From a virus: a DNA stretch of 64,000 bases. The stretch is taken from IMG/VR virus record IMGVR_UViG_3300034283_001919, positions 40,068 through 104,067 of that record. One strand, 5' to 3'. The position numbers and the translations under genes are program-made. Shown piece by piece: positions 10,780-28,135 of this stretch. Positions within the stretch are counted from its first letter, which is position 1, and each line of letters starts with the position of its first letter. The notes under the pieces were generated by a model that had not been told where the DNA came from, did no database searches, and worked only from the letters and a program-made list of their open reading frames with translations.

Positions 10780-13323
10780 TTAAGCAGTTTTCTTTGCGTT
10801 GGTAAACACAATAGGGCTAATCTTACCACGGAATCTTTGGTATTCAATGGCTTCATCAAAGGTATGATAACTGCCATCTTCATCGATGCCAATCCATTCA
10901 GATGTCTTGCTCTGCATTACTCGGACTGTGCCATCTTTGTTTCTAATGAAAGAAACTACGTTAGCCAATCCATAATATTGGAGTGCTCGTTCAAGGAACG
11001 GAAAGACATGTCGATTGAATACGATTTGGTCACTTACTTTACCATTTGAAGTTGGGTGCTTCAAGCTGGCAGAATAGAGACCAAGTACTAGATCGTGTCG
11101 ATCAGACTCATTGTCATGTAGTTCAATCTTATCAACGATTGATTGATACAGGAAGTCCCAGCTACTGCTGTCAAGATAACCACTAGATTCATTCATGTCT
11201 GATTGATTCAAGTTGTAAATATCTTTACGGAATTGTTTTAAGATAGGAATAGCATTGAAGCTCAAGCGATAGCCAATCTTATGAATAACTTCATCAGGTT
11301 GACAGTTCTTTTGAGCCCATTCGGTAATCATCTTTACATACTCACGATATTTAGTTTTCGTGATCATATTAAGCTGAGTGATTTTACCTTCGTGCTTTTC
11401 TACAAATTGGCCTGGCTTGAGATAGTAGTCAAACTTCTTAGCATCCCATAATGAACGGTCTACTGGAAGTCCAGAACTAATAACTTCATCAACCAATACT
11501 TTAGCTTCAAGCTCAATCGCTTCACGGTCAGCTGGTTCGTTTGTCTGAGTGCAACCGTCGATTGCATCTTCCAAACTACACAGTTGAAGTGGACGATGAG
11601 AATGGAACACAGAAGTATGTAGCATTACAGCATTGACGAAACCGCCAACGCCTCCACCTGTCATACTAGATCGGATATCATTAAAGACATCTTGTCTAGT
11701 ATAGGTTTCAGTACGTTCAGCTTTAGGAGCAGTAGAAGAAGGAAGTCCTACATAGCTAACTTTCCCTGCGTGAATGGCGGTAGATAGGCGCATAGGCCAA
11801 CCACGTCCAGAACACTCAGGAAACTTAACTTGAGTACCGTCACTGGTCAACCAAGTTGGAGACCATTGTCCTTCTACATATCTAAATACAGAGTACTCAC
11901 CAAGACCATTTGGAGATCGACGTGCAAAGACAACCTTTTCTTTATCATATTGTCCACCAACTGGAGTCCTATAGAATAAACCAAAGAAGTCGTCACCGTC
12001 GCAGCCACCATGGCTCTCATACATCTCAATCCAATCGAGATCATTAACTACGTGTACACCAAGGTCATTGATGCGTTGAATAGTTCCTTCTTCGACTTCT
12101 ACATCATAACCAGATAAGCGAGCCATAGACTCGCTAATAATCTGTTCAGATACAGAACAAGGGATTGGGATACGTTCTTGAAGGGGTTTAGCATGGCTAG
12201 TAGCAAGGGTCTGGAATAACCAAGGGGAATCAGTTACCTTCATCCCCATTGCTTTCCAGCGATAACCTTGATATTGAAACCGTGCATAAGACTCTTCATC
12301 TTCAAGGTTAGTATCATCACGGAAAGAACGTTGGTATACATTCTTCCAGTTCATCAAAAGCTTATTGTTGATGGCATCGTTGAAGAGTTTCTTATATTCC
12401 TCGTCTAGCCAATATTCCATATCACTCTTGGTAAAGAGTTGTGGCATATTAATAAGAGTTTGATCGTCCGTACGGACTTTGGACTTAGGTCCTTGAGGCT
12501 CAGCAATGAGTTGATAGCCTTCAGAATATGAGATCTCTGTCTTGACATTTCCATGCCAAGTCAATACATCTACACCTTCAGGAAGTTTATCGGTAACAAA
12601 GCAGTTGCCTTTAAGCTGACCCATTGGTCCAGTAAGTCTAATATTAAATACTTTAGCATTATATAGATTACGGATGCAATCCATACGCATAGTAGGATTA
12701 AGATAGTACTCACCTGGATCCTCGTTTTCAGCGGGATCAAAGATAGGTAGGTTATCAATACCTTTATGGATCAATCGTGGATGGATAGCAAAGCCACCGT
12801 CTAAGAGTCGATCCCAAACTTCAGGATTTTGATAAAATTCTTGATAGTCTTCAGCATCTATAAGCCAATAGCCTTCTTCATCGCTATCGAAATAGCGACT
12901 AAAGTCGCCGGCTTCACAATAGCGTATTTTGATTTCATCAAGATCAAAGTGAGCATTGATTAAAGTAGGTCGATGGAGAGTCTTCAACCGCTTAGCAGTC
13001 TTGCCTCCACCGTGGACAGTATAACCCATATCAGTAAAGATACTAAGCCATTCAGTATTGTTGCCAATTTGACAGATAACAATTTTGTTCTTGTCAACTA
13101 GAGCATACTGAATAGAAGGATCATTAATGATTTGTTGAATTTGGGTAAATTCATGTTCGTTTTGTGGGATAGGCAAAGAGCCTACCCGATAGAATGATTC
13201 GCCAGAATATTGTAATGCCTGGCGAAGGTGAGATATATCGTAGAAACCTACTTGATATCCACCTGTAGAGCGAATAGGTCCATCAGCATAGCAGATAGTT
13301 CTTGTTTTGGGGTTAATGGCCAA
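10780..13323 (-). CDS. large protein of unknown function (847 aa) with GGCDGDDF motif
   Basis: The start is a TTG at 13323 with AAGGAGGGATTT upstream. The 847-residue soluble protein has no family I can name with confidence. Around residue 435 an acidic motif (HGGCDGDDFFGLFYRTPVGG) followed by FARRSPNGLGEYSVFRY recalls the DxDGD metal-binding loop of two-barrel RNA polymerases and RdRP-like or YonO-like enzymes. The first Asp of that motif is replaced by Gly, and the surrounding order differs. It is a single-gene unit between a strong terminator and its own leader. It has two in-frame CGG codons read as Arg. A nucleic-acid enzyme is possible; this is speculation. Confidence 0.75.
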   Translation of the reverse strand: MAINPKTRTICYADGPIRSTGGYQVGFYDISHLRQALQYSGESFYRVGSLPIPQNEHEFTQIQQIINDPSIQYALVDKNKIVICQIGNNTEWLSIFTDMGYTVHGGGKTAKRLKTLHRPTLINAHFDLDEIKIRYCEAGDFSRYFDSDEEGYWLIDAEDYQEFYQNPEVWDRLLDGGFAIHPRLIHKGIDNLPIFDPAENEDPGEYYLNPTMRMDCIRNLYNAKVFNIRLTGPMGQLKGNCFVTDKLPEGVDVLTWHGNVKTEISYSEGYQLIAEPQGPKSKVRTDDQTLINMPQLFTKSDMEYWLDEEYKKLFNDAINNKLLMNWKNVYQRSFRDDTNLEDEESYARFQYQGYRWKAMGMKVTDSPWLFQTLATSHAKPLQERIPIPCSVSEQIISESMARLSGYDVEVEEGTIQRINDLGVHVVNDLDWIEMYESHGGCDGDDFFGLFYRTPVGGQYDKEKVVFARRSPNGLGEYSVFRYVEGQWSPTWLTSDGTQVKFPECSGRGWPMRLSTAIHAGKVSYVGLPSSTAPKAERTETYTRQDVFNDIRSSMTGGGVGGFVNAVMLHTSVFHSHRPLQLCSLEDAIDGCTQTNEPADREAIELEAKVLVDEVISSGLPVDRSLWDAKKFDYYLKPGQFVEKHEGKITQLNMITKTKYREYVKMITEWAQKNCQPDEVIHKIGYRLSFNAIPILKQFRKDIYNLNQSDMNESSGYLDSSSWDFLYQSIVDKIELHDNESDRHDLVLGLYSASLKHPTSNGKVSDQIVFNRHVFPFLERALQYYGLANVVSFIRNKDGTVRVMQSKTSEWIGIDEDGSYHTFDEAIEYQRFRGKISPIVFTNAKKTA

Positions 13324-15758: not shown

Positions 15759-16280
15759 CTAGAGGAAATCCTCTAAGTCATCATCCAAATATTGTCGCTT
15801 TACCCAAGTTAATTCGGGTGTAGCTATGTAAGTAGTGGATTGATTGTATGGACCAGACTTTTCAGTCTGATCCCAAGTCCAAGCGTATGGACAACAAGGT
15901 GGAACAAGTGTTCCATTCTCAATGTGGCTAAGTTCGCCACCTGAGAAACACCATCCTCCGGTGATGTTGCCATGACCACCATGAACTCCTGCAAATTTTG
16001 CAAGTCCAGGTAGTGCATTGAAAAGTATCACACTGCAGTCATGGCACAAATGTGCTAGGTATGGATTAGAATCATACTCAGAAATTGAGTACACTTCACC
16101 CCGAGTTTGATCGGGGATGCAGTCAGTGAATCCGCCATAGTGTCCAAGTGACAAGGTATTGATAGAAATACCGTCGTCAATAAACATACCCTGTTGTTGA
16201 GTCGTGGGATTGGGTATCCCACAGTTTGTACAGTTGAGTAGTGGATATTTATCCACTAATTCTTGAGAATGATTAAGCAT
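15759..16280 (-). CDS. Cys-rich protein with zinc-ribbon-like pairs (173 aa)
   Basis: The 173-residue protein has CTNCG (residues 17-21) and CHDCS (about 79-83), two Cx2C knuckles that could bind zinc, and later Cys in GGWCFSGG and VPPCCPYAW. No catalytic motif is recognised. It carries one in-frame CGG (ACT CGG GGT) read as Arg. Confidence 0.65.
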   Translation of the reverse strand: MLNHSQELVDKYPLLNCTNCGIPNPTTQQQGMFIDDGISINTLSLGHYGGFTDCIPDQTRGEVYSISEYDSNPYLAHLCHDCSVILFNALPGLAKFAGVHGGHGNITGGWCFSGGELSHIENGTLVPPCCPYAWTWDQTEKSGPYNQSTTYIATPELTWVKRQYLDDDLEDFL

Positions 16281-16298
16281 ACTCTTTCATTTTTTTCT

Positions 16299-16916
16299 TT
16301 ATTGTTTTGGACGATGACCCGTAACTGTTGGGTTCTTGAGAACAAATGCAATCCAGAAGTATTCTAAAACTGCAGCAACAGCATAAAAATGATCTGGTTC
16401 AGATGAGTTTCTAGGATCAACGGCCATATAATCTAAGATTTCAGACCAAGACAAATCTGTTTTGCCATAGTCTTCTAAAAGAGATTGAAAAGTTTTAAAG
16501 TCATCTTCAGAAATATAAATATTGTCAGAAGCAATAACTTTATTAATAGCAGAAAGCTGTTGTTGAACCATATGGCCAACAACATGAACTGAATTTTTGT
16601 GCAATTGAATGTTGTCTATAGGTTCTGAGATATTATAACCTTCAATACGAGCAATTGCTTCACAGTCTGCACAAGGGCATGGATTAAATCCATAGCCAAT
16701 TTCTGTGTGTTCACTGTGACAATAGCACGAATAGACAGGTCTAGTGGTATTAAACATAGATAGAATGTCAGTTGCTAAAGTATCATTAACACCGCTTTGA
16801 ACAAGCGATGAGTAAATGCCAACTTCAGCTTCAATATCCCATTCAGGATTTGAAACAACTTTGTAAGACTCTGTTTCAGGATCCCATATTACTTTTTTGT
16901 CATTAGGTTGATTCAT
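16299..16916 (-). CDS. hypothetical protein with Cys/His cluster (205 aa)
   Basis: The 205-residue protein has a Cys/His-rich centre (YSCYCHSEHTEIGYGFNPCP followed by CADC), suggesting metal binding. Helical flanks surround it, ending FWIAFVLKNPTVTGHRPKQ. The start MNQPNDKKVIWDPETESYKV follows AAGAGTAAATTTAAA. The family is unknown. Confidence 0.7.
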   Translation of the reverse strand: MNQPNDKKVIWDPETESYKVVSNPEWDIEAEVGIYSSLVQSGVNDTLATDILSMFNTTRPVYSCYCHSEHTEIGYGFNPCPCADCEAIARIEGYNISEPIDNIQLHKNSVHVVGHMVQQQLSAINKVIASDNIYISEDDFKTFQSLLEDYGKTDLSWSEILDYMAVDPRNSSEPDHFYAVAAVLEYFWIAFVLKNPTVTGHRPKQ

Positions 16917-16934
16917 TTTAAATTTACTCTTTCT

Positions 16935-17114
16935 TTAGAAATAATACCAAACTGAAGTTTTCATTTCCTCAGTCAGTTGTGACTCTTGATAGATAAGAAC
17001 TCCTCCATATTGTTGTTCAAGGACCTGTTCACAGTCTTGAAGATTACCACGATAAAGGATGAATTCATCTGCAGGGTCAACTACGTAATAGATAGTTTGA
17101 TTATTATTGTTCAT
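16935..17114 (-). CDS. hypothetical small protein (59 aa)
   Basis: The start at 17114 (MNNNNQTIYYVVDPADEFIL) follows TAGGAGAACTATA. A longer reading from 17171 would run through a tRNA-like T-loop and begins MGSNPITPTK, a typical translation artefact of tRNA 3' ends. The protein is acidic and of unknown function. Confidence 0.65.
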   Translation of the reverse strand: MNNNNQTIYYVVDPADEFILYRGNLQDCEQVLEQQYGGVLIYQESQLTEEMKTSVWYYF

Positions 17115-17147
17115 TATAGTTCTCCTAACTATAGATTTGATTTTAGT

Positions 17148-17250
17148 GGGTGTAATGGGATTTGAACCCAATTATGTATCTCACAGCTGATATAGCGGGG
17201 GAAGGCTATATTCAGGGTGGTCATTACCTTCCAGGCACCCGAAGGTGAGC
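17148..17250 (-). ncRNA. tRNA-like or structured RNA element
   Basis: The minus strand contains a convincing tRNA T-loop (TGGG TTCAAAT CCCA, 17158-17172) followed by CACCC, which can pair with GGGTG at 17236-17240 as an acceptor stem. A 7 bp stem ATATAGC/GCTATAT closes an 8 nt loop CTTCCCCC (17190-17213). The D arm is not canonical, acceptor positions 6 and 7 mismatch, and GGGTG can also pair locally with a nearer CACCC. It may be a degenerate tRNA or another folded RNA. A further 90 nt up to 17343 holds no gene. Confidence 0.35.
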
Positions 17251-17343
17251 ATATTTGTGCAGAGCATACTCAGGCTCCGTTAGCTAGCATTTTACCCTGG
17301 CTTACTACCATCCAGGTAACCTATAAATAGGAAATGCATTTTG

Positions 17344-17568
17344 TTACCAATCGTTACGAACGTGTGGGTTTTTGATTTCATTGATATACTCAACAGTATT
17401 TGTGACTGAATCATTAGCAATGGTTTTTAGGGCAAAACCAGTAGATTTAGTGATGTGCCATAGACCAAGAGCAGTGCCATAAAGCAATGTTCCTGCACCA
17501 ATGGCTGGCGCAACAACTCCATATTGAGCTGTTTTCTTAAATGTTGATTTAATTTTTGTAGTGTTCAT
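17344..17568 (-). CDS. small membrane-associated protein (74 aa)
   Basis: The start at 17568 (MNTTKIKSTFKKTAQYGVVA) is chosen for the ribosome site GGAGTTATT; an upstream in-frame ATG at 17646 lacks one. A glycine-rich hydrophobic segment (APAIGAGTLLYGTALGLWHI) suggests membrane association. The function is unknown. It is the last coding gene before the long non-coding region. Confidence 0.65.
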   Translation of the reverse strand: MNTTKIKSTFKKTAQYGVVAPAIGAGTLLYGTALGLWHITKSTGFALKTIANDSVTNTVEYINEIKNPHVRNDW

Positions 17569-17649
17569 AATAACTCCTGTTATTCTGGTTTTGTATGGGC
17601 GTATGGTCAATTGCCCGCAGGCAAATATCTTATAGAATGGAAGCACTTT

Positions 17650-18690
17650 ACATCATGATACTCAGCATGAGTTACTTTTAAATTAAGTAAGTAACAAACC
17701 ATAAGTGGTATATTCGGTTAGAAGAGCCTCAATATACCAGTGAGGGGTTTTTATCGCTAACCGTGCGATATTTCTACACGCACACACAATAAGCAGTGTG
17801 CAGTTGGAAACTTTAATCTTAAGAAGATTGGTCCTATTTTGCAAGGATAACAATGGGTACTAGATGGCTAACATACGCTGGGTTGGGATTGTACAATCCA
17901 ACAATTGAACCAGGGTAATGCATTCGTTCGCAGAGGTTATCACGGGATTTCGTATCAACCATAGTCTCAAAGAGACAGTTCTGTAGTCTCGGCTAAAGTG
18001 GCACTTGATTAGGCACTTCTCAATTGGAAACTTAAGGGTAACTCAATCGGGTTTTAGTCTAATCAGTTACAGACTCGCTATACAGACTCTTCTTAAGAAA
18101 TCTTGTGGTTCGCCGGCAAAACCAACGAACACGAATATTCTCAGGGGTATATCATATACTCTAGAAAGGAATAAGAGAGTATAGAGACACCTAATATAGG
18201 GGGAGATAATCTCCCATATTGGGTATACTTACATTTGCCGTGTCTAGTATACCCAAATGCATAACACCTTGGCAGGTTACATATGCATAGTTTTATAATG
18301 GGTATACCCCTGAGAGATATTAATATAAGCATTTGTCCAACAATAATATATATATTGCTATAGATACATTAGGGGATAAGTATACTTATACTAACGAAAA
18401 GGGTAGTTTCTTGGCAATCAGCCGTAGGTATCTACCAAACTATCATATGTTTGCTTTTGTTGCCTGGCCGGCAAATCCAAATGGAAATGCCTTAAAGCGG
18501 GACAACGGGCTAAAGATATCGATATGATACCTGCAATCATCTAACTGGGGGCCCAACCCCAGAGAACTTGAGATCGATTATAGATTTAGAATCTATGTAG
18601 GTACGAGTGTTACCTAATGTAGTAATGTACTCGTCAGTACACAACTACACAAGGTAGGACACAAGGATTGTTTCAGCGGATCAGTGCTAG
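17650..18690 (-). ncRNA. about 1 kb non-coding, hairpin-rich region; candidate large structured RNA
   Basis: No reading frame with a ribosome site occurs here. Many helices are visible: CGGTTAG/CTAACCG at 17718-17762 enclosing CCTC/GAGG, GCACAC/GTGTGC (17780-17801), AATCTT/AAGATT (17815-17829) and GGATTG/CAATCC (17885-17900). Others are GTCTC/GAGAC (near 17965), repeated GTATACCC arms (18142-18310) and CTGGGG/CCCCAG (18545-18564). Large ornate phage RNAs such as GOLLD and ROOL have this size and sit near phage tRNAs. Similarity to them is not established. The strand is inferred from flanking genes and UUCG-capped hairpins just upstream. Confidence 0.45.
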
Positions 18691-18734
18691 GTGAAATCAA
18701 ACCTAAGGATATATAGAGGGGGTTACACACAGCC

Positions 18735-18782
18735 TAGTCACCGAAGTGACCAGACTGGTGTCTTCACCAAGAGAACTTGGTG
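18735..18782 (-). terminator. two stable hairpins after the 141 aa gene, one with a UUCG loop
   Basis: On the minus strand, immediately after the stop at 18793, CACCAAG TTCT CTTGGTG (18765-18782) is followed by TGGTCAC TTCG GTGACTA (18735-18752). UUCG tetraloops closed by C-G are hallmarks of functional RNA. They may terminate or stabilise the upstream mRNA, or form the 5' edge of the following non-coding RNA. No T-run is present. Confidence 0.6.
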
Positions 18783-18792
18783 GCAAATCTCA

Positions 18793-19218
18793 TCAAACGA
18801 ACTTGATGGCGGGCACTGGTGCCAAACCGCAAATGCGTTCCGCAAAGCGGTCAGCATTCAGGATGATGGTCTGATAAGTGACACCCTTCTCAGAGAGATA
18901 GGGGACAGACTTGTCAGCGGTCAAGCAAGTGAACTCATAGTACACAACTTGGCCAGAAGCCTTTGCTGTGTTGAACCGAGAAACAATCTCAGAGTTCTCT
19001 TCTGCTGAAAACCAGAGTTCATACGCACCAGAGAAGTTCTGGTACTTGACGCCATCAGAGGCAACCGAGTCGAAACGAAGGTCGACTGGTACAGTGTTGG
19101 TAGCATCCATAATGCTAACCAAGAAAGCGAAGCGTTGACCATCAGCGGAACGCTTTTGGATTGGTGCTTGCTGAGTTGAGCCCTTGCCAGAAGCAAGAGC
19201 GTTGATACGGACTTTCAT
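18793..19218 (-). CDS. hypothetical protein (141 aa), possible beta-barrel
   Basis: The protein starts with TTTGGAGAAACT before ATG. Alternating beta-strand-like segments (GQRFAFLVSIMDATNTVPVD, QVVYYEFTCLTADKSVPYL) could form an OB-type fold as in phage single-strand DNA-binding proteins, but no signature residues prove this. It contains one in-frame CGG (TCT CGG TTC) read as Arg. Its composition is less AT-rich than the late genes. Confidence 0.65.
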   Translation of the reverse strand: MKVRINALASGKGSTQQAPIQKRSADGQRFAFLVSIMDATNTVPVDLRFDSVASDGVKYQNFSGAYELWFSAEENSEIVSRFNTAKASGQVVYYEFTCLTADKSVPYLSEKGVTYQTIILNADRFAERICGLAPVPAIKFV

Positions 19219-19530
19219 AGTTTCTCCAAACTACTACAAGAAACCCACGGATTGGGTCCCTATTTGAAAATTTAGAATAATATAATATTAAAACTTAAGA
19301 TATATGTCTATTAATAATATAGACGTAATTGTTTGCCGGCAAAATAACTATGCCTGATCAAGTCTAAGACATTGCTCCAACATATATATAAACATATATA
19401 AGATACTATTACAGCGTTCAGTAGGACAATCGTTCGCGGACTCCTCATACTATTCACTTAGTTCACTGGTTTCCAATCCCTGAAACGTGAGACTATAGAT
19501 ATAAACTAAAGACATATAAACGGTTGAAGG
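19219..19530. other. 312 nt gap with two degenerate promoter-like elements
   Basis: No gene with a ribosome site is visible. Degenerate copies of the array element occur at about 19288-19305 and 19500-19518. A small hairpin GTCTAT/ATAGAC lies at 19307-19325. The motif TGCCGGCAAA (19334) recurs in the non-coding region at 18112 and 18467. Confidence 0.4.
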
Positions 19531-19683
19531 TCACCCAGCTTTCGCTGGGGCCTTCTTCGCACGAGCCTTGCGAGGCTTCGACGAAGCAGCATGGAATGCT
19601 GCGTAATGACCACGGATGTGGTCGATGGACTGTGGTGTGATGTTGTTGCTTTCCAAGCGACAACGTGCGCAAATAGCGGACAT
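19531..19683 (-). CDS. small zinc-finger-like basic protein (50 aa)
   Basis: The product begins MSAICARCRLESNNITPQSI, with CARC at residues 5-8 and His22, His26 and His31 as possible further ligands. Its basic tail (PRKARAKKAPAKAG) matches the end of the 56-residue gene at 22701. AGGAGGTACACT precedes the ATG. The stop lies in the hairpin CCCAGC GAAA GCTGGG, a probable terminator stem shared nearly identically with that other gene. Confidence 0.7.
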   Translation of the reverse strand: MSAICARCRLESNNITPQSIDHIRGHYAAFHAASSKPRKARAKKAPAKAG

Positions 19684-19726
19684 AGTGTACCTCCTAAGGA
19701 CACTATGACATTTAAAGATCTATATA

Positions 19727-19801
19727 GATACAAGACTACATCTCTCGTCAGAGATGCAATCCTTGTGTGCCCGGACAGTCCTTGTTACAACTCCAGTCGG
19801 C
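19727..19801 (-). ncRNA. short non-coding transcription unit
   Basis: This about 75 nt segment lies between two array elements (19802 and 19703) with no ribosome site or frame. On the minus strand it carries a perfect hairpin CATCTCT GACG AGAGATG (19740-19757) and CCGGGCAC upstream. It is a candidate small RNA or extended leader of the zinc-finger gene. Confidence 0.4.
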
Positions 19802-19833
19802 ACTATAAGATTTAAAGATATACACACAGTATA

Positions 19834-19889
19834 ATCACTACACCATCTGTATAGCACTATGTGCATACAAGCTGGCGCGTGATAGTGGA
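19834..19889 (-). ncRNA. small RNA family, copy A
   Basis: This roughly 56 nt stretch directly follows the element at 19896 in transcription order. It shares three identical blocks with 23261-23314: CCACTATCACG at the 5' end, CACATAGTG in the middle and TAGTGAT at the 3' end. CACTAT can pair with the middle ATAGTG, or ATCAC with the terminal GTGAT, so alternative folds exist. No frame is present. Confidence 0.6.
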
Positions 19890-19936
19890 CGACAACTATA
19901 AGCTAAAGATATATATAAAGACCACAGTAACCCGAG

Positions 19937-20125
19937 CTAAGAAGCTCGAGCACTGCGGCGGTAACCAGCTTTGATTTCCAACAGCTTGAGAACCTGCTTG
20001 TCAGACAAGTTACCCTTAGCCCTGAAGGTCAGAAACATTGCACGACAAAACTTGTTTGAACGTTGATGTAGTTCTGCAAAGTCTAAAGCTTGGTCCACCA
20101 TTTTTGGTGTTACCCAGTCATTCAT
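19937..20125 (-). CDS. small helical basic protein (62 aa)
   Basis: The start follows AAAGGAGTCATCATC. The sequence MNDWVTPKMVDQALDFAELH continues with a helix-rich basic protein ending RRSARAS. The pattern DKQVLKLLEIKAGYRR could be DNA-binding. It is preceded by the element at 20148 as a monocistronic unit. The function is unknown. Confidence 0.7.
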   Translation of the reverse strand: MNDWVTPKMVDQALDFAELHQRSNKFCRAMFLTFRAKGNLSDKQVLKLLEIKAGYRRSARAS

Positions 20126-20179
20126 GATGATGACTCCTTTCGTCCCACTATAATTTAAAGATATATAATCCAGCTAAAC

Positions 20180-20521
20180 TCAGCCTTCCGAAGAAGACTG
20201 AGTAAAGCCAAGGGCTGCAAAGCGTTGGTCAATCGCTAGTGCTCCATAGCTCGGATGGTCAGGATTCCGAAGAGCGTTGAGAGTACTAGAGAACCGAAGA
20301 AGAACTTGGTTAGTAGGGCAGACAGCCTTGGCCAAAGCCTTCTGAATCTCCCAAGTCAAATAATCAAGACGCTTACGGTCCTGCTCATAAGCGTTGATTT
20401 GAGACTCGCACTCCTTCATGGTCTGATGAAGCGCAGCAATCTTGCTGTCAACAGAATCAATTTGCGTTTGCAAATCTTCCTGTTGTAATAGTAGGGATGT
20501 GACGGATGGCGTTGTTGCCAT
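20180..20521 (-). CDS. coiled-coil protein (113 aa)
   Basis: The start follows AAGGAGGTTCATT. Residues about 8-60 form an amphipathic coiled coil (LLQQEDLQTQIDSVDSKIAA, MKECESQINAYEQD). The C-terminal half is globular and unknown. It contains in-frame CTT CGG AAT read as Arg without frame change, so CGGA alone is not sufficient for shifting in this region. Confidence 0.75.
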   Translation of the reverse strand: MATTPSVTSLLLQQEDLQTQIDSVDSKIAALHQTMKECESQINAYEQDRKRLDYLTWEIQKALAKAVCPTNQVLLRFSSTLNALRNPDHPSYGALAIDQRFAALGFTQSSSEG

Positions 20522-20580
20522 AATGAACCTCCTTAGGTCACTATGAAATTTAAAGATATATAAAGCTCAAACAACGAACC

Positions 20581-20739
20581 CTAAAAGGGCTCGTCGTCCG
20601 ATGACTGGTAATCGTCGTCAGAAACAACGACTTCGCCAAATCCATTCAAACGATGATGAAAACACCATTCGTCTTGATGTGATGGACTCTCAAAGTCAGG
20701 CGCAAGTTGCCCGCAACGAGGACAGTTAGTAACAAACAT
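20581..20739 (-). CDS. small zinc-binding-like protein (52 aa)
   Basis: The start at 20739 follows GGAGGTTCAAC. The protein MFVTNCPRCGQLAPDFESPS has CPRC (residues 6-9) and WCFHH (25-29) as likely zinc ligands, and an acidic Ser/Asp tail (SDDDYQSSDDEPF). An in-frame ATG at 20862 would run back through the preceding element and is rejected. Confidence 0.7.
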   Translation of the reverse strand: MFVTNCPRCGQLAPDFESPSHQDEWCFHHRLNGFGEVVVSDDDYQSSDDEPF

Positions 20740-20784
20740 GTTGAACCTCCTTAGTTCGCTATGAAATTTAAAGATATATAATAA

Positions 20785-20901
20785 TAGAAAAACCCAGAAC
20801 GATAAACGTTCTGAGCTTTCTGGTACCCAGCTGATGGAGCCTGCGCTGTGTTGACCCACCATTTACTCCGACCATCGAATAGCCGTCGGTACAGCCTACC
20901 A
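20785..20901 (-). ncRNA. small RNA unit ending in an intrinsic terminator
   Basis: From the element at 20902 about 110 nt run leftward without a ribosome site. They end in the terminator CAGAACG TTTAT CGTTCTG followed by GGTTTTT (20788-20813). An internal CCGAC/GTCGG helix is visible. The segment CTGGGTACCAGA also occurs in the unit at 23138-23218. An independent small RNA is the simplest reading. Confidence 0.55.
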
Positions 20902-20944
20902 CTATGAAATTTAAAGATATATAAACAAGGAAAAGTCCCTCAGC

Positions 20945-21178
20945 CTAAGCTGAGGTCCCTTCCTTGGGCAAACGCAGAAGTGTAATGGTCTTCCAAGATT
21001 TACGCTTGTTCGCGGATGTTTTCAACACGAGGCAACGGTCATGGGTGCTCCAATGCAAGCCAGAGCCTGCGTAATCAGCCCAGTCGCTAAAAGCCCAAAT
21101 GTTGAAACAGCCAATCTTGCGCCATTCCATGCCGTGTGGATTGCCAATGTTACGAAAGAATAAAATCGCATTCTTCAT
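20945..21178 (-). CDS. hypothetical protein (77 aa)
   Basis: The ATG follows AAAGGAGAACACA. The 77-residue protein is Trp- and Lys-rich (FNIWAFSDWADYAGSGLHWS) and of unknown function. The stop codon lies in the hairpin CCTCAGC TTAG GCTGAGG, probably a terminator. It is preceded by the element at 21201. Confidence 0.7.
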   Translation of the reverse strand: MKNAILFFRNIGNPHGMEWRKIGCFNIWAFSDWADYAGSGLHWSTHDRCLVLKTSANKRKSWKTITLLRLPKEGTSA

Positions 21179-21244
21179 TGTGTTCTCCTTTCAAGAGTTC
21201 ATATAAGTATTTAAAGGTATATAAGACATGAGAGTTAACCCAGC

Positions 21245-21439
21245 CTAAGCCGAGTCAACTCCACACAACCAACAATACGATGCAGCAGGTGCAACATCGA
21301 GCCCGTTTAAGTAGCGCTGCTGCTCAAGGTCACTCATACCGTTGTTCTCGTTGATGTCGTAGTCATTTTCAATACAACGTTCACAGACCACAGCATCGAC
21401 GCCTTCGCCTTTTCCATCTGGCATAATAAATAATCTCAT
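21245..21439 (-). CDS. small Cys-rich protein (64 aa)
   Basis: The start at 21439 (MRLFIMPDGKGEGVDAVVCE) follows AAAGGAGTTATT. CERC (residues 19-22) and CWLC (57-60) form a two-knuckle zinc-ribbon pattern. It is monocistronic behind the element at 21463. Confidence 0.7.
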   Translation of the reverse strand: MRLFIMPDGKGEGVDAVVCERCIENDYDINENNGMSDLEQQRYLNGLDVAPAASYCWLCGVDSA

Positions 21440-21482
21440 AATAACTCCTTTCAAAAGTCGAACTATAATTTAAAGATATATA

Positions 21483-21596
21483 CCTTTCAGCATAGATCCT
21501 CGGGAGAATGACTCCCGAAGATCTTAGTTGCATTATCGCCTAGTGCTGTGCTAGACCCGAAGAACCACTTCGCTGGTTGGTTTTGTTGGCAACTCA
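21483..21596 (-). ncRNA. small RNA unit with long terminal hairpin
   Basis: About 110 nt follow the element at 21597 with no credible frame. They end in a roughly 13 bp hairpin AGATCTTCGGGAG/CTCCCGAGGATCT (21498-21529 area). A second hairpin around CGAAGTGGTTCTTCG is upstream. It is probably an independently transcribed structured RNA. Confidence 0.5.
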
Positions 21597-21630
21597 CTAT
21601 AAAATTTAAAAGATATATACAAGTGGATAA

Positions 21631-21786
21631 TCACGACGCCGAAACGTCGTGATCACCACTGACCAGAAGTGTGTAAATGGCAGACTCGCATTCACCACAA
21701 TCTGGGTCATAGTCAATAACCATCTGCTTGAGATCGATGTGACAAGTCGAACAATACCAAGCATCTTTGTCAAAATCATAATACAT
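21631..21786 (-). CDS. small zinc-ribbon-like protein (51 aa)
   Basis: The start follows AAGGAGGTTCATT. The sequence MYYDFDKDAWYCSTCHIDLK contains CSTC (12-15) and CGEC (30-33), a zinc-ribbon layout. The stop lies inside the hairpin ATCACGACG/CGTCGTGAT (21629-21653), a probable terminator. Two elements (21806 and 21851) precede it in tandem. Confidence 0.7.
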   Translation of the reverse strand: MYYDFDKDAWYCSTCHIDLKQMVIDYDPDCGECESAIYTLLVSGDHDVSAS

Positions 21787-21835
21787 AATGAACCTCCTTA
21801 GTTCACTAAAGTATTTAAAGATATATAATCACCCT

Positions 21836-21850
21836 GCGCGTGATAGTGGA
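21836..21850 (-). ncRNA. partial third copy of the small RNA 5' segment
   Basis: GCGCGTGATAGTGGAC here is identical to the corresponding part of copy A (19876-19891) and follows the variant element at 21851 (ACTAAAG type). Only the 5' portion is present before the next element at 21806. It looks like a truncated paralogue. Confidence 0.45.
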
Positions 21851-21882
21851 CTATGGACTAAAGGTGTATAAATACAACGGAC

Positions 21883-22062
21883 TTACCCTGGATTACTCCA
21901 GGGGGTCTCGCCGGGTGCCCCAACGGCCAACCATGTTTCAAACATGTTGATTTCCTTTAGGGTGAACCCATTGTCACACATTTCACATAGTTCATCAATC
22001 AATACTTGATTACGACCACATTTCACACATGCTCCACGTCCGTCTTCGTCTACATTAGACAT
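21883..22062 (-). CDS. small zinc-ribbon-like protein (59 aa)
   Basis: The start at 22062 (MSNVDEDGRGACVKCGRNQV) follows AAAGGAGTTATT. CVKC (12-15) and CEMC (26-29) are typical zinc knuckles. The C-terminal half is helical and ends PWSNPG. The stop is within the hairpin CCTGGA GTA ATCCAGG. Confidence 0.7.
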   Translation of the reverse strand: MSNVDEDGRGACVKCGRNQVLIDELCEMCDNGFTLKEINMFETWLAVGAPGETPWSNPG

Positions 22063-22107
22063 AATAACTCCTTTCACAAGTCACACTATAAAATTTAAAG
22101 ATATATA

Positions 22108-22167
22108 CACAATAAGAAACAATGCACTGCAGTCCAGTGCCCCATCGGTTTGCAATTGCTTCTCACT
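22108..22167 (-). ncRNA. short non-coding unit with hairpin
   Basis: About 58 nt follow the element at 22168 without ribosome site or frame. The hairpin GCACTG GACTG CAGTGC (22121-22137 area) is near the end. It is a candidate small RNA, or a tandem promoter leader for the gene at 21883. Confidence 0.4.
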
Positions 22168-22199
22168 CTATAATTTAAAGATATATAACAATTAGGTAA

Positions 22200-22318
22200 A
22201 TAGTCACTGCACCGCTCTTAAGCGGGTAAGATCAGTGACTACCAACAAGATCCCAGTTCATGACGAACCGGACTGCACGTCTGCAGCGGGATGAGTCTTG
22301 TCTGTGCCATCTCTCCCA
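22200..22318 (-). ncRNA. small RNA unit with terminator-like hairpin
   Basis: About 115 nt follow the element at 22319. A 23-codon frame exists but its GGGAG is only 2 nt from the ATG, so I do not call it. The unit ends in TAGTCACTG/CAGTGACTA enclosing CCGCTTAAGAGCGG (22202-22241). An independently expressed RNA is likely. Confidence 0.45.
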
Positions 22319-22388
22319 CTATAAGATTTAAAGATATATACAATAGCCAAATACACCCAACCTAAAAGGCTGAGTGTACTTGACCTGG

Positions 22389-22643
22389 TCAAGGCAACTG
22401 AATGCGGTCACCGACATCGATAACACCACCATACTGATCTACCAATTGATCAATGGCGGTGATGATACCGGAGGTGCAATGCGCATGTGCGATTGACCAA
22501 ATAGTCTCGCCTCTTGCAACAACATGCAATGCATGGTCGCAATCGGCAGGTGGCTCTTGAACGAGCACCTTGATGACTGGGATAAAGGCGATAAACAGTA
22601 CAACTGCTACCGCAATACGACGTCGTAGATACACGTAATACAT
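22389..22643 (-). CDS. membrane-anchored LysM protein (84 aa)
   Basis: The start at 22643 (MYYVYLRRRIAVAVVLFIAF) has GGAG 6 nt upstream; an ATG at 22667 lies too close to the array element. One N-terminal transmembrane helix is followed by a LysM domain (LHVVARGETIWSIAHAHCTS ... VGDRIQLP). LysM binds peptidoglycan or chitin, so the protein probably sits at the host envelope and contacts cell wall. It is monocistronic behind the element at 22669. Confidence 0.8.
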   Translation of the reverse strand: MYYVYLRRRIAVAVVLFIAFIPVIKVLVQEPPADCDHALHVVARGETIWSIAHAHCTSGIITAIDQLVDQYGGVIDVGDRIQLP

Positions 22644-22700
22644 GTAATCTCCATTCTGTAGGGACATACTATAATTTAAAGATATATAAATAGTTGAAGG

Positions 22701-22871
22701 TTACCCAGCTTTCGCTGGGGCCTTCTTGAGCTGACCATTAACCAACTCAAACTTGAGCTGACGATTAGCAAACTCAACGTTAGCCTCGATGAGGGTGATG
22801 AGTGCACGACGTGAATCGTCGCTAATCAACGACCAGATAGAGTGCCGACAGATAATAGCTTTCTTAGCCAT
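22701..22871 (-). CDS. hypothetical basic protein (56 aa)
   Basis: The start follows AGGAGGTTCATT. The protein MAKKAIICRHSIWSLISDDS ends LKKAPAKAG, the same basic tail and terminator hairpin as the gene at 19531. This suggests a shared or duplicated 3' end. The function is unknown. Confidence 0.7.
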   Translation of the reverse strand: MAKKAIICRHSIWSLISDDSRRALITLIEANVEFANRQLKFELVNGQLKKAPAKAG

Positions 22872-22933
22872 AATGAACCTCCTAAGTTCTCTATGAAATT
22901 TAAAGGTATATAAATCAGGGAAGTTAACCCAGC

Positions 22934-23095
22934 TTACGCTGAGCCAACTCCAGTGCAATCATGATCTTCCACATCGGTAGAACCACATTTGCAAACGCAA
23001 CGATGATCATCCAACGTGCATCCACAGTATTCACACCATCCACAGTAATCATACTTGTCTTCAATTTCCTTAGTGCAGTGTCCACATGTCCACAT
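22934..23095 (-). CDS. multi-Cys zinc-ribbon protein (53 aa)
   Basis: The start at 23095 follows AAAGGAGTTATT. MWTCGHCTKEIEDKYDYCGW and the following CEYCGC, HRCVCKC and DHDC give about ten Cys, enough for two or three zinc sites. It is preceded by the element at 23118. A nucleic-acid-binding or host-protein adaptor role is plausible. Confidence 0.7.
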   Translation of the reverse strand: MWTCGHCTKEIEDKYDYCGWCEYCGCTLDDHRCVCKCGSTDVEDHDCTGVGSA

Positions 23096-23137
23096 AATAA
23101 CTCCTTTCACGAGCAAACTATAATTTAAAGATATATA

Positions 23138-23218
23138 AATCAGTAGTCTCTACCTCCCAAAAGGGAAGTAAAGACCAAGTCCACGATAGCTCTGGTACCC
23201 AGTTGCATATCGCTCATA
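23138..23218 (-). ncRNA. small RNA unit
   Basis: About 80 nt follow the element at 23219 without a frame or ribosome site. They end in the hairpin TTTACTTCCC TTTT GGGAGGTAGA (23148-23172). It shares CTGGGTACCAGA with the unit at 20785-20901, so the two may be related. Confidence 0.45.
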
Positions 23219-23260
23219 CTATGATTTAAAGGTATGTACAATACATACATACATATATAC

Positions 23261-23314
23261 ATCACTATGCCTACCCTATCCCACTATGTGGACATAGGCT
23301 AGCCGTGATAGTGG
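23261..23314 (-). ncRNA. small RNA family, copy B
   Basis: This is the second copy of the element-driven RNA at 19834-19889, directly after the variant element at 23316. The identical blocks CCACTATCACG, CACATAGTG and TAGTGAT keep their order and spacing within 2 nt. The arms CCCACTAT/ATAGTGGG form an 8 bp stem here, with compensating extension relative to copy A. No frame is present. Confidence 0.6.
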
Positions 23315-23388
23315 GCTATAAACTAAAGATATATAACAGTAACCGACTTACCCGACTTGCCTGGGGGAGAGGCAGCCGGAGCGGTTGG

Positions 23389-23493
23389 TCAGAGAATCTC
23401 GTCGCGATGCTTGTAGGCAAAAGCCAAAGCAACGAACGAAAGAATCGCTGACACGATGTACGTAACATAGTACGCAGAACGTAAAGTCTTCAC
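23389..23493 (-). CDS. single-pass membrane microprotein (34 aa)
   Basis: The start is a GTG at 23493 with AAAGGGGATAAAC upstream. The product (V/M)KTLRSAYYVTYIVSAILS continues FVALAFAYKHRDEIL, one transmembrane helix with charged ends. It sits behind the element at 23520. Good start context supports it despite its size. Confidence 0.6.
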   Translation of the reverse strand: MKTLRSAYYVTYIVSAILSFVALAFAYKHRDEIL

Positions 23494-23581
23494 GTTTATC
23501 CCCTTTCATGGAATTCATACTATAATTTAAAGAACTATAATCCTTGGTGCCCGTCCCCCTTGCGGGGGAACAGGCTGGCGA

Positions 23582-23833
23582 TTAGACGAGTTCCGGATGG
23601 AGCTCGGCCAAGTGCGACGTGTGGTGAGTGTATCCACCACCACGGTTTTCTGCAATGTAGGACTCTGCCCATCCACCGGTGTGGACTTCCATTGTTACTG
23701 GAAGACAAGCATGATCAATGATGATCACGTTGTTACCGTAACGGATGTAAGCCTGACCACCGTTGTAGTGGAGCAGATCGCCCTTGCTGATAGCCGTGTT
23801 GATGAGTGCGTCAACTTGCGCTAATGTAAACAT
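23582..23833 (-). CDS. hypothetical protein (83 aa)
   Basis: The start at 23833 (MFTLAQVDALINTAISKGDL) follows AGAAAGGTAAAC. It is a soluble alpha/beta protein with several His near the C-terminus (GGGYTHHTSHLAELHPELV) that could bind metal. It is monocistronic behind the element at 23875. The family is unknown. Confidence 0.7.
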   Translation of the reverse strand: MFTLAQVDALINTAISKGDLLHYNGGQAYIRYGNNVIIIDHACLPVTMEVHTGGWAESYIAENRGGGYTHHTSHLAELHPELV

Positions 23834-23953
23834 GTTTACCTTTCTGATACAAGTACTTGGGTTTCCTTGCGTCACTATAAGATTTAAAGGATATATACTC
23901 CTTTAACCCTCACCCCCCTTACGGGGAAGTGAGGGACCAGAGTAGTCCGAAGA

Positions 23954-24148
23954 CTAGATGGTTGTTGGAACGCTCTTGTCACGAGTCGTGATGTAACCCA
24001 TTGCCGGAGCAATGACCTGCATACGTACCTGCTGTGATACAGCCTGGACTGCAGCGTTGTTCTTCTGACGTGCTTGGACGCCTTTCGCACGCTTTGCAGC
24101 GCACGCAGCCTCGAACTCGGCCTGTGATAGTGGTGTGAATAATGACAT
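23954..24148 (-). CDS. small basic helical protein (64 aa), paralogue 1
   Basis: The protein MSLFTPLSQAEFEAACAAKR is a close paralogue of the gene at 24590 (about 75-80% identical by eye, same length, same ending RDKSVPTTI). GGTACAG before ATG is a modest ribosome site. Downstream sequence, including the hairpin CCCTCAC/GTGAGGG near 23907-23933, is also duplicated. Confidence 0.75.
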   Translation of the reverse strand: MSLFTPLSQAEFEAACAAKRAKGVQARQKNNAAVQAVSQQVRMQVIAPAMGYITTRDKSVPTTI

Positions 24149-24230
24149 GTCTGTACCTCCTAAGTACTAATAGAGACACTATAATATTTAAAGATATATA
24201 ACATTGTTGAAACAACAACACACCTCAACT

Positions 24231-24254
24231 CTAGACCTGAACGGTTGCTGACAT
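24231..24254 (-). CDS. possible 7-codon leader peptide (MSATVQV)
   Basis: Behind the element at 24303, TTTAGGAGGAACA precedes ATG and a stop comes after seven codons. A TTGTTG TTT CAACAA hairpin follows. The ribosome site is among the best in the array, so translation of a tiny peptide is plausible. It could be a regulatory leader or a remnant of a deleted gene. Confidence 0.35.
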   Translation of the reverse strand: MSATVQV

Positions 24255-24342
24255 TGTTCCTCCTAAATACAAACTCTAACGACACGTGTGCATTGCTGCT
24301 CACTATAAGATTTAAATATATATACCTTTTCTTAGCTTACGC

Positions 24343-24489
24343 TCAGAACTCCGAAGAGTCCTGAACGCGAGCCTTGATTACGTTCACTACGTCGTACTTA
24401 CGTACGAGCGTGTACGCACCGAAGATCCATACACCCTTGGTGAGTGCGAATCCGATGATAGTGAACAATGATGTTAATAGTGTAAACAT
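24343..24489 (-). CDS. small membrane protein (48 aa)
   Basis: The start follows AAAGGAGTATTATC. MFTLLTSLFTIIGFALTKGV plus WIFGAYTLVRKYD is a hydrophobic N-terminal helix followed by a charged tail ending DSSEF. It is monocistronic behind the element at 24513. The function is unknown. Confidence 0.65.
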   Translation of the reverse strand: MFTLLTSLFTIIGFALTKGVWIFGAYTLVRKYDVVNVIKARVQDSSEF

Positions 24490-24589
24490 GATAATACTCC
24501 TTTCACGAGCATACTATAATTTAAAGATATATACTCCTTTAACCCTCACCCCCCTTACGGGGAAGTGAGGGACCAGAGCAGTCCGAAGA

Positions 24590-24784
24590 CTAGATGGTTG
24601 TAGGGACGCTCTTGTCGCGAGCTGTGATGTAGCCCAACGCTGGTTGTACTACTTGCATGCGTACCTGCTGTGTTACTGCAGTTACTTGTGCGTTGTTCTT
24701 CTGACGTGCTGATACGCCTTTCGCACGCTTTGCAGCGCACTTAGCCTCGAACTCGGCTTGTGTTAGTGGTGTGAATAGGGACAT
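24590..24784 (-). CDS. small basic helical protein (64 aa), paralogue 2
   Basis: MSLFTPLTQAEFEAKCAAKR pairs with the gene at 23954 as a recent duplication. Coding sequence and about 60 nt of 3' flank with the hairpin are nearly identical. It is preceded by the element at 24814. Both copies are intact, so both are probably used. Confidence 0.75.
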   Translation of the reverse strand: MSLFTPLTQAEFEAKCAAKRAKGVSARQKNNAQVTAVTQQVRMQVVQPALGYITARDKSVPTTI

Positions 24785-25100
24785 GTCGGTACCTCCTAGT
24801 ACTCATAGTGACATTATAAACTTTAAAACATATATATATCCTACATAGACCCGGTGGGCATGTTAAAGATATAAACATATACATATAATATACTATTACC
24901 CCTTTATAAATTTTCTCAACTTTTCCCCTATATGACTTTTATATATGTATATATAGGTTCACATACAATCATTACAGTCCAAAAAATTTTTCTTACAAAT
25001 ATTCCCACCTAGGTTGACAAACCACAAATCAACCGATAATGTTTCACTCACTAACCACAAAGGCGATGATCCGCCCCAAAAAACAAAAGGATAGAATCCA
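24785..25100. other. AT-rich divergent junction
   Basis: No gene is visible in these 316 nt. They hold the last two array elements (24814, 24861), long AT stretches such as TATATATGTATATATAGG near 24942, and the switch from leftward to rightward genes. A rightward promoter, and possibly a replication origin, would fit here, but no iterons or DnaA-type boxes were recognised. Confidence 0.4.
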
Positions 25101-27009: not shown

Positions 27010-27168
27010 TCAACCTTCTATTTCCTCGGTCCATTTTTCGCCACACTCTCTACAAGAGATTCCAAAGCTTTGACATTCGCCTTCTTTAACAGCCAATGGT
27101 TTTATTAAAACATTCATTGGTACTGGGCATTCAGGGCAAGGGTCTAGTTTTAGTTGTTCAGCTTTCAT
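27010..27168 (-). CDS. small zinc-ribbon-like protein (52 aa)
   Basis: The gene overlaps the 3' end of recA by 11 nt in another frame. MKAEQLKLDPCPECPVPMNV and later SCRECGEKW give two Cx2C knuckles. It is coupled to recA and could assist DNA metabolism, though this rests only on position. Confidence 0.6.
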   Translation of the reverse strand: MKAEQLKLDPCPECPVPMNVLIKPLAVKEGECQSFGISCRECGEKWTEEIEG

Positions 27169-28135
27169 AATCTAAAAGCTTAGCAATTTCTTTGTAAACA
27201 TTCTCGTCTTCTTTGAGCTTATTGATGGCGTTGTCTCTTCCTTGAGAAAACATCTCACCATTATAGTAAACCCAAGCTCCCTTTTGTGTAAAGATTCCAG
27301 ACATGAATCCAAGGTCCAACAAAGAACCATACATGTCCACACCCTTACCGTAATAGATATCAAACTCAGTTACCTTAAGTGGGGGTGCCATCTTATTCTT
27401 GATAACCTTAGCTTTGACCTTAATTCCAATTGAATCGCCGGCCTTGTCCTTAAGATCTTCTTTCTTGCGAATATCTAGACGTACAGATGCTGCGTAAGGT
27501 AGTGCTCGACCACCAGGAGTGGTCTCTGGGTTACCAAACATGATACCTATCTTCATGCGAAGCTGGTTAATAAATATAACAAGAGTTTTATGCTCGTTAG
27601 CAAGTGCTACGATCTTACGTAATGCCTTAGACATCATACGTGCCTGCAGACCCATCTGGTTGGCCTCCATATCGCCTTCAAGCTCTGCCTTGGGCACAAG
27701 TGCCGCAACTGAGTCTATAACGATAAGGCCGACCTCTCCGGTCCTAATGAGCTTATCTACAATCTCTAATGCTTGCTCGCCGTAATCTGGTTGCGCAAGT
27801 AATAGTTCATCTAGATCTACACCAAGTGCAGTCATGTAACCTGGATCTAACGCATGTTCGGCATCTATATATGCACAACGTAGTCCTTGCTTTTGAGCTT
27901 GTGCTACTGTAGATAGTGCAATTGTAGATTTGCCAGATGATTCTGGTCCATAAATTTCTACAACACGACCTAGTGGCAATCCGCCAATCCCTAGTATCTT
28001 ATCTAACGTTGGTGCTCCCGTTGACACTGATGGCCAAGGCTCTGAGGTATGAGCACCTAACTTCATTACTGCACCAATTCCAAATTGTCTTTCGAGTTGG
28101 GCAATCGCTAATTCAAGTGATTTAGATTCTTCCAT
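27158..28135 (-). CDS. recA: RecA recombinase
   Basis: The 325-residue protein is a clear RecA. Walker A is GPESSGKST (63-71), with AYIDAEHALDP, LIVIDSVAALVPKAELEGDM and the L2-adjacent FINQLRMKIGIMFGNPETTP all recognisable. The N-terminal segment LAIAQLERQFGIGAVMKLG is canonical. It is slightly shorter than bacterial RecA (about 345-350), the acidic C-terminal tail being reduced. It drives strand exchange in recombination-dependent replication or repair. It is transcribed leftward, divergently from 28229, and followed by two coupled small genes. Confidence 0.97.
   Translation of the reverse strand: MEESKSLELAIAQLERQFGIGAVMKLGAHTSEPWPSVSTGAPTLDKILGIGGLPLGRVVEIYGPESSGKSTIALSTVAQAQKQGLRCAYIDAEHALDPGYMTALGVDLDELLLAQPDYGEQALEIVDKLIRTGEVGLIVIDSVAALVPKAELEGDMEANQMGLQARMMSKALRKIVALANEHKTLVIFINQLRMKIGIMFGNPETTPGGRALPYAASVRLDIRKKEDLKDKAGDSIGIKVKAKVIKNKMAPPLKVTEFDIYYGKGVDMYGSLLDLGFMSGIFTQKGAWVYYNGEMFSQGRDNAINKLKEDENVYKEIAKLLDYES

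Follow-up and report, generated by a model that had tools for sequence, protein, structure and literature searches.

A block of approximately 5 kb within a 64,000-nt stretch of viral DNA (IMG/VR record IMGVR_UViG_3300034283_001919, positions 40,068 to 104,067; the whole stretch is called the window, and its coordinates are used unless stated otherwise) was found to hold some 27 units, tiny genes or small RNAs, and a near-identical copy of one short element stands at the head of each. The element is probably a core promoter that lacks a −35 box and is fused to the terminator of the preceding unit, and each micro-gene would thus be a transcription unit of its own. The phage was read in the window and in a longer contig, IMGVR_UViG_3300042868_009074 (G001; 267,766 bp, possibly incomplete), part of which was 100% identical to the window, i.e. 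the same phage.

The element has the consensus TATATATCTTTAAAT(0-2 nt)TATAGT and was present on the minus strand in 26 clear copies and 1 weak copy between 19496 and 24858, all in the orientation of the genes. The exact 20-mer occurred 6 times. Allowing up to 3 mismatches raised the count to 16, compared with 0.03 in shuffled sequences, and every match was on the minus strand (19896-24533). A position weight matrix (PWM) grown from the 20-mer matches retrieved 26 sites (19496-24536), and the weak first copy was located at approximately 24814-24842. The many near-identical same-strand copies noted in the original prediction, an earlier reading of this DNA by a model, were confirmed by these searches, and its count of about 29 was close; its right-hand copy near 24876 belongs instead to a distinct, deeply conserved block at the head of the array. 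That reading had also described a uniform element of 20 bp. The copies are indeed near-identical, but two spacing classes, ...AAAT-TATAGT and ...AAATnn-TATAGT, were observed, indicating that the element is made of two boxes with a small variable gap (0-2 nt) rather than a rigid 20-mer.

In a motif search of the 268-kb G001, the 16-nt core at 2 mismatches was found only within 199.0-203.7 kb, save two isolated sites, and the best PWM site outside the array scored 20 bits, versus 22-33 bits for most array copies. The element is thus confined to this segment, as had been proposed, with only isolated weak matches elsewhere. Sigma-70-like hexamer pairs were not enriched in the array region (19 versus 18.5 in shuffles), in agreement with the predicted lack of a −35 partner.

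Reading leftward, each unit contains the element, a leader, a ribosome site, an open reading frame (ORF) or a structured RNA, and a stem-loop, which is followed by the next element. About 17 copies lie 20-31 nt upstream of an ORF start; where a unit is clearly coding, the distance from the G of TATAG is mostly 7-18 nt to the Shine-Dalgarno (SD) sequence and 20-31 nt to the start codon. The constant geometry before ribosome sites therefore holds for the coding units, and the rule of one element per micro-gene holds in part, since a convincing ORF is missing from about 10 of the 27 units. Strong folding (−22 to −47 kcal/mol) was predicted for most of these 10. Every unit closes with a stem-loop right before the next element, and terminator-like sites numbered 13 versus 4.8 in shuffles, 12 of the 13 being on the gene strand. 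Leader hairpins are weak in this phage and the stretch of conserved sequence upstream is longer, a pattern that would fit information carried by the DNA element.

Based on this anatomy, the stem-loop of the upstream unit would terminate the RNA of that unit, and directly downstream of the stem-loop would lie a core promoter that is A/T-rich (box TTTAAAT) and has no −35 box. The new RNA would begin about 7 nt past the TTTAAAT box, where the element ends in TATAG or right beside that end. Its leader would be short (approximately 20-31 nt) and would often fold into a small hairpin whose loop exposes the ribosome site. Each micro-gene or small RNA would form its own terminator-to-promoter cassette, making the block modular and easily duplicated or exchanged. 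With TATAGT as an ordinary −10 box, the start would fall inside the SD sequence, so that it must be placed at the element's downstream end or close to it. Initiation at the element, as originally predicted, is further supported by the stem-loops, by the noncoding and often highly folded units, which also start with the element, and by leader hairpins of relatives that begin inside the element. Since no isolate with this array was found, all functional steps are inferred, including binding of the element as DNA, firing of transcription from it by the host RNA polymerase, and early expression of the array genes.

Relatives were sampled via the recA/UvsX-like gene (27158..28066, minus strand; phrog_97, E 3.6e-85), the syntenic anchor of the array; at least 136 were present in IMG/VR and 80 were fetched. 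An array in the same place and on the same strand, downstream of the recA-like gene, was detected in at least 20 related contigs. A repeated element of its own was found in each array, and neither the upstream DNA nor shuffles showed a comparable enrichment. The layout is thus shared, whereas the element sequence itself is lineage-specific; the geometry retained is a hairpin, an A/T- or T-rich element, a putative RNA 5′ end and a short leader. Close relatives have the TATA-like elements TTTAAATGTTTTAG, TATAAAGGTTTTATAG and TATAAATATATC, with TATAAAT in loci L029, L039 and L045 versus TTTAAAT in the window phage. In a second group, a terminator T-tract is followed by ATGGGTAG, ATGACTAG, ATGCCTAG or ATGAGTAG; a third group has T6-GAGGATAG, and in a fourth TTTTTATTG comes after a hairpin.

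In 17 arrays, the 55 nt before the element were more structured than control DNA located 345-400 nt upstream, and in most arrays the difference was clear; stem-loop strength gave z values from −1.7 to −5.4, versus approximately −1 for the majority of flanking controls. In nearly all leaders of the second and third groups, the letters GNNTAG form the 5′ arm of the leader hairpin, and at positions 2 and 3 of this motif the second group shows covariation as G-C, A-U and C-G pairs. Pairing in the leader hairpin means that these letters are transcribed, which puts the 5′ end of the RNA at the G or just before it. A fast-evolving, lineage-specific form of initiation without a known counterpart is also conceivable but rather unlikely. 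In each related jumbo phage, its own element fused to a terminator would be read by a factor, or by an RNA polymerase that has just terminated and then restarts where the T-tract is followed by its first purine; the single-gene transcripts would lie back to back, each with a 5′ hairpin.

Two noncoding units are kept over nearly their whole length in relatives. Unit 20784-20903 showed 87% identity over 137 nt with locus L028 (at 16476 of L028), and unit 22191-22322 showed 78% identity over 144 nt with L029 (at 16277 of L029). These conserved structured units are candidates for new phage small RNAs; an Rfam scan returned nothing convincing in the array. The string CCACTATCACG was found in three short array units.

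The array is preceded by a head (GGGTAATAGT ... CTTTAACRWGCCCACC), which is single-copy, noncoding and deeply conserved. Model R1, built from 14 relatives, matched it on the same strand (+) in 48 of the 48 related loci searched. No consensus RNA fold with covariation was obtained for the head, and a search in isolated phages gave no meaningful match. The head could serve as a promoter, as an origin or as a regulator site.

The main rival to promoter-terminator cassettes, and a serious one although it has the smaller share of the probability, is RNA processing. An RNase of the host or the phage would cut a long array transcript within the element, which is A/U-rich and would be single-stranded, and hairpins would protect the 3′ and 5′ ends. 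Hairpins do bound every unit, and the conserved head before all arrays could mark the start of a long transcript; however, a good sigma-A-type promoter was not detected at the array start in most loci, and the first unit of the arrays has an element as well. A stable hairpin, preceded by a U-rich linker, would form the mature 5′ end in the T-tract relatives, but the hairpin and T-tract resemble an intrinsic terminator, which would stop a long array transcript. The element, at 18-20 bp, is also far more constrained than a U-rich cleavage linker requires. An RNase P reading of the hairpins in the T-tract relatives was dropped because no 3′ CCA was seen. Initiation at the elements is favored, and several points weigh against it: the hairpin-element-hairpin layout would also suit RNA cleavage, no recognition factor for the array elements was identified, and the T-tract relatives have only the terminator T-tract and AT upstream of the putative 5′ end, with no recognizable −10 box, which would be unusual for a promoter.

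The original prediction had invoked a dedicated polymerase or factor. Its reading as start elements of single-gene units, with RNA 5′ ends at the downstream border of the element, is supported, but a dedicated polymerase is not, as no phage single-subunit or multi-subunit RNA polymerase was found in the 268-kb G001 by Pfam and catalytic motif scans. One RNA polymerase Pfam search covered only the 104-kb record of the phage itself and its PF00940 control matched nowhere, so that it counts for little alone. The elements end in TATAG, as T7 and SP6 promoters do, and their shortness and uniformity would also suit promoters of a single-subunit (T7- or N4-like) phage polymerase. This explanation is very improbable, because no such polymerase was seen by Pfam or motif scan (G001 being possibly incomplete, with the control as stated) and the variable gap of 0-2 nt fits poorly with rigid T7-type promoters. 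Giant virion proteins were considered as N4-type virion RNA polymerases and rejected: a 3799-amino-acid protein matched an endolysin family and two others matched nothing. An 847-amino-acid protein (10780-13323) matched no family, and only two other relatives were found.

A dedicated factor is still conceivable: the phage encodes a 205-amino-acid extracytoplasmic function (ECF)-like sigma factor (G001 64597-65214, minus strand) with sigma region 4 (PF08281, E 1.1e-5). A low-confidence model of it (mean pLDDT 58) gave SigL, SigH, RpoE and AlgU as top Foldseek matches in the PDB, with high probability. There were 129 relatives of this protein in viral contigs, with 61-100% identity among the 80 shown. 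Outside the array, the motif TTACTATA(T) was enriched, mostly 36-60 nt before genes, and is late-promoter-like (e.g. G001 38958, 44449, 170592, 193567 and 265192, minus strand); TTACTATA was also enriched near the recA locus in relatives. That the array elements are promoters for this ECF-like sigma is suggested by its fold, yet is quite improbable: the sigma is conserved while the array elements vary by lineage, so it is probably not their reader, and the conserved late-gene motif TTACTATA, kept outside the arrays in many relatives, appears the likelier target. Sigma-A-type promoters are present too (e.g. TTGACA-17-TATAAT at G001 195167), and the array elements look like a third promoter class beside these and TTACTATA.

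One cassette of the array is duplicated (24513-24836 versus 23874-24200, 85.7% DNA identity), and the gene content of the arrays differs between relatives. Both would suit sites of recombination or cassette exchange (attC-like) or operators, none of them directly involved in starting RNA. Such sites would need neither a constant distance to the ribosome site nor a same-strand bias, the leader hairpins belong to RNA, and no integrase was recognized among the scanned proteins; we regard this explanation as having very little probability.

The features of the array, all on the minus strand, are given from right to left with PWM scores in bits. The head, a conserved single-copy noncoding block matched by model R1 (GAAAAnTTATnAnnGGGTAATAGT...CTTTAACATGCCCACC; 24791..24933), is located just before the first unit. 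The weak first element (24814..24842) heads this unit, whose ORF of 64 amino acids (24590..24784) belongs to the cassette duplicated at 23954-24148. The element at 24511..24536 (30.3) is followed by a membrane-like ORF of 48 amino acids (24343..24489), and the elements at 24302..24327 (24.9) and 24178..24203 (28.9) by an ORF of 64 amino acids (23954..24148). A variant with a one-base insertion (23875..23900; 15.4) precedes an 83-amino-acid ORF (23582..23833, as set from the sequence; the ORF list starts it at an upstream GTG), and the element at 23517..23542 (23.6) precedes a membrane-like ORF of 34 amino acids (23389..23493). The element at 23313..23338 (22.7) heads a noncoding structured unit (23242..23317; no ORF, predicted −25 kcal/mol). 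That at 23216..23241 (24.5) is followed by a structured unit or a near-leaderless ORF of about 25 amino acids (23141..23220; predicted −35 kcal/mol), that at 23115..23140 (30.2) by a Cys-rich ORF of 53 amino acids (22934..23095), and that at 22890..22915 (26.1) by an ORF of 56 amino acids (22701..22871). The element at 22666..22691 (30.6) precedes an ORF of 84 amino acids with a membrane anchor and LysM (22389..22643; PF01476, E 7.6e-4, just under the cut-off).

Farther left, the element at 22318..22343 (30.9) is followed by the noncoding structured unit conserved in L029 (22191..22322; predicted −47 kcal/mol), and that at 22165..22190 (31.6) heads an 80-nt unit. The element at 22085..22110 (32.8) precedes an ORF of 59 amino acids with CxxC pairs (21883..22062). 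A variant element (21848..21873; 15.4) has a 43-nt unit, and the element at 21805..21830 (25.8) is followed by an ORF of 51 amino acids with CxxC pairs (21631..21786). Another variant (21597..21622; 19.4) heads a noncoding unit with only a 7-amino-acid ORF (21486..21600). The elements at 21460..21485 (28.4) and 21201..21226 (19.2) precede ORFs of 64 amino acids with CxxC pairs (21245..21439) and 77 amino acids (20945..21178), respectively. The element at 20901..20926 (31.6) heads the noncoding RNA conserved in L028, which has a terminator hairpin (20784..20903; predicted −42 kcal/mol). Then follow the elements at 20758..20783 (28.7), 20540..20565 (30.1) and 20145..20170 (31.2), with ORFs of 52 (zinc-ribbon-like; 20581..20739), 113 (20180..20521) and 62 amino acids (19937..20125), respectively. 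Noncoding structured units are headed by the elements at 19893..19918 (22.6; unit 19828..19897, predicted −22.5 kcal/mol) and 19802..19827 (28.2; unit 19728..19806, predicted −31.8 kcal/mol). The element at 19702..19727 (21.8) precedes an ORF of 50 amino acids with CxxC (19531..19683), and the last element is at 19496..19521 (19.0).

As to the gene types originally proposed, the LysM assignment applies weakly to the one gene above, and the zinc-ribbon-like Cys-rich proteins were recognized by eye with weak Pfam matches. The putative role of the array genes in host takeover is plausible.

The phage is a giant (jumbo) phage that probably has an actinobacterial host. Family scans showed that it encodes WhiB and an Rpf-like transglycosylase, which point to such a host, and the nearest relatives of its DNA Pol III alpha were from Streptomyces and other phages (38-39% identity). 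A host search through genome contigs returned nothing, no isolate was matched in a near-DNA search of phage records, and the annotation of Mycobacterium phage Kumao contains no such array near recA.

Other observations were made in G001. Two paralogous five-gene clusters (16070-22312 and 231488-237907) encode a JAB-domain protein and an AAA ATPase, and a ThiF protein is also encoded; these are reminiscent of ubiquitin-like conjugation systems. Further cargo included a cytochrome P450, a proteasome/HslV-like subunit, glutathione peroxidase, approximately nine 2-oxoglutarate-Fe(II) oxygenases, subtilases, a class II ribonucleotide reductase and WhiB. Tandem repeats of approximately 159 bp were found within a 794-amino-acid ORF (259960-262102).

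Taken as a family, the shared layout with differing signals points to an undescribed start-and-stop system. It would be a family-wide design in uncultured giant phages, with a terminator-start cassette for each micro-gene and small RNA, in which the start signal is rewritten between lineages while synteny, array head and sigma factor are conserved. Such a design makes testable the co-evolution of a recognition factor with the elements, the building of modular small-gene arrays, and the coupling of initiation to termination. A set of phage small RNAs not described so far is likewise suggested by the arrays.

Among known systems, the start-associated sequences (SAS/ESAS) of Cluster K mycobacteriophages are 13 bp long and contain the SD sequence (PMC3203893). 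Both are short repeats before a subset of small genes in an actinophage, but the array element is upstream of the SD sequence, mostly by 7-18 nt, and the resemblance originally drawn is weak for this reason. The host-takeover module of SPO1, reportedly described by Stewart in 1998, uses host sigma-A promoters, and we know of no one-element-per-gene uniformity in it. This module is a cluster of many very small genes (PMC12282133), and so is the array. SPO1-type modules are defined by early expression and by host shut-off activity, features that are putative for the array genes. A T7-type promoter differs in that no cognate RNA polymerase was found and its rigid spacing of about 20 bp was not observed. 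In T4 late promoters, which have no −35 box and serve late genes via gp55, gp33 and gp45, an 8-bp TATA-like box precedes the start by about one helical turn (PMC2988020). The array may resemble them in lacking a −35 box and in a similar box at a comparable distance from its predicted starts (TATAAAT(A) in close relatives and TTTAAAT in the window phage); however, the phage sigma here is ECF-like and late genes carry another motif.

The promoter early stem-loops (PeSLs) of T4-type phages are said to have been described by Arbiol (2010) and Comeau (2014), and their promoters are of the early sigma-70 type. In PeSLs, a terminator stem-loop is joined to a promoter between small early genes, and they were proposed to let genes shuffle as cassettes (PMC4503421). 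The array likewise has a stem-loop (terminator) directly joined to a start signal. Gene shuffling may occur in the array, which has one duplicated cassette and whose gene content differs between relatives. It differs from PeSLs in that sigma-70-type −35/−10 pairs are at shuffle level, in that the genome is that of an actinophage-like jumbo phage (Pol III alpha, WhiB) and not of the T4 type, and in having an element that is near-identical in 26 copies and lineage-specific, with about one third of the units apparently noncoding. The array would thus work like PeSLs but lacks two of their defining features, and it is therefore not classed as a PeSL.

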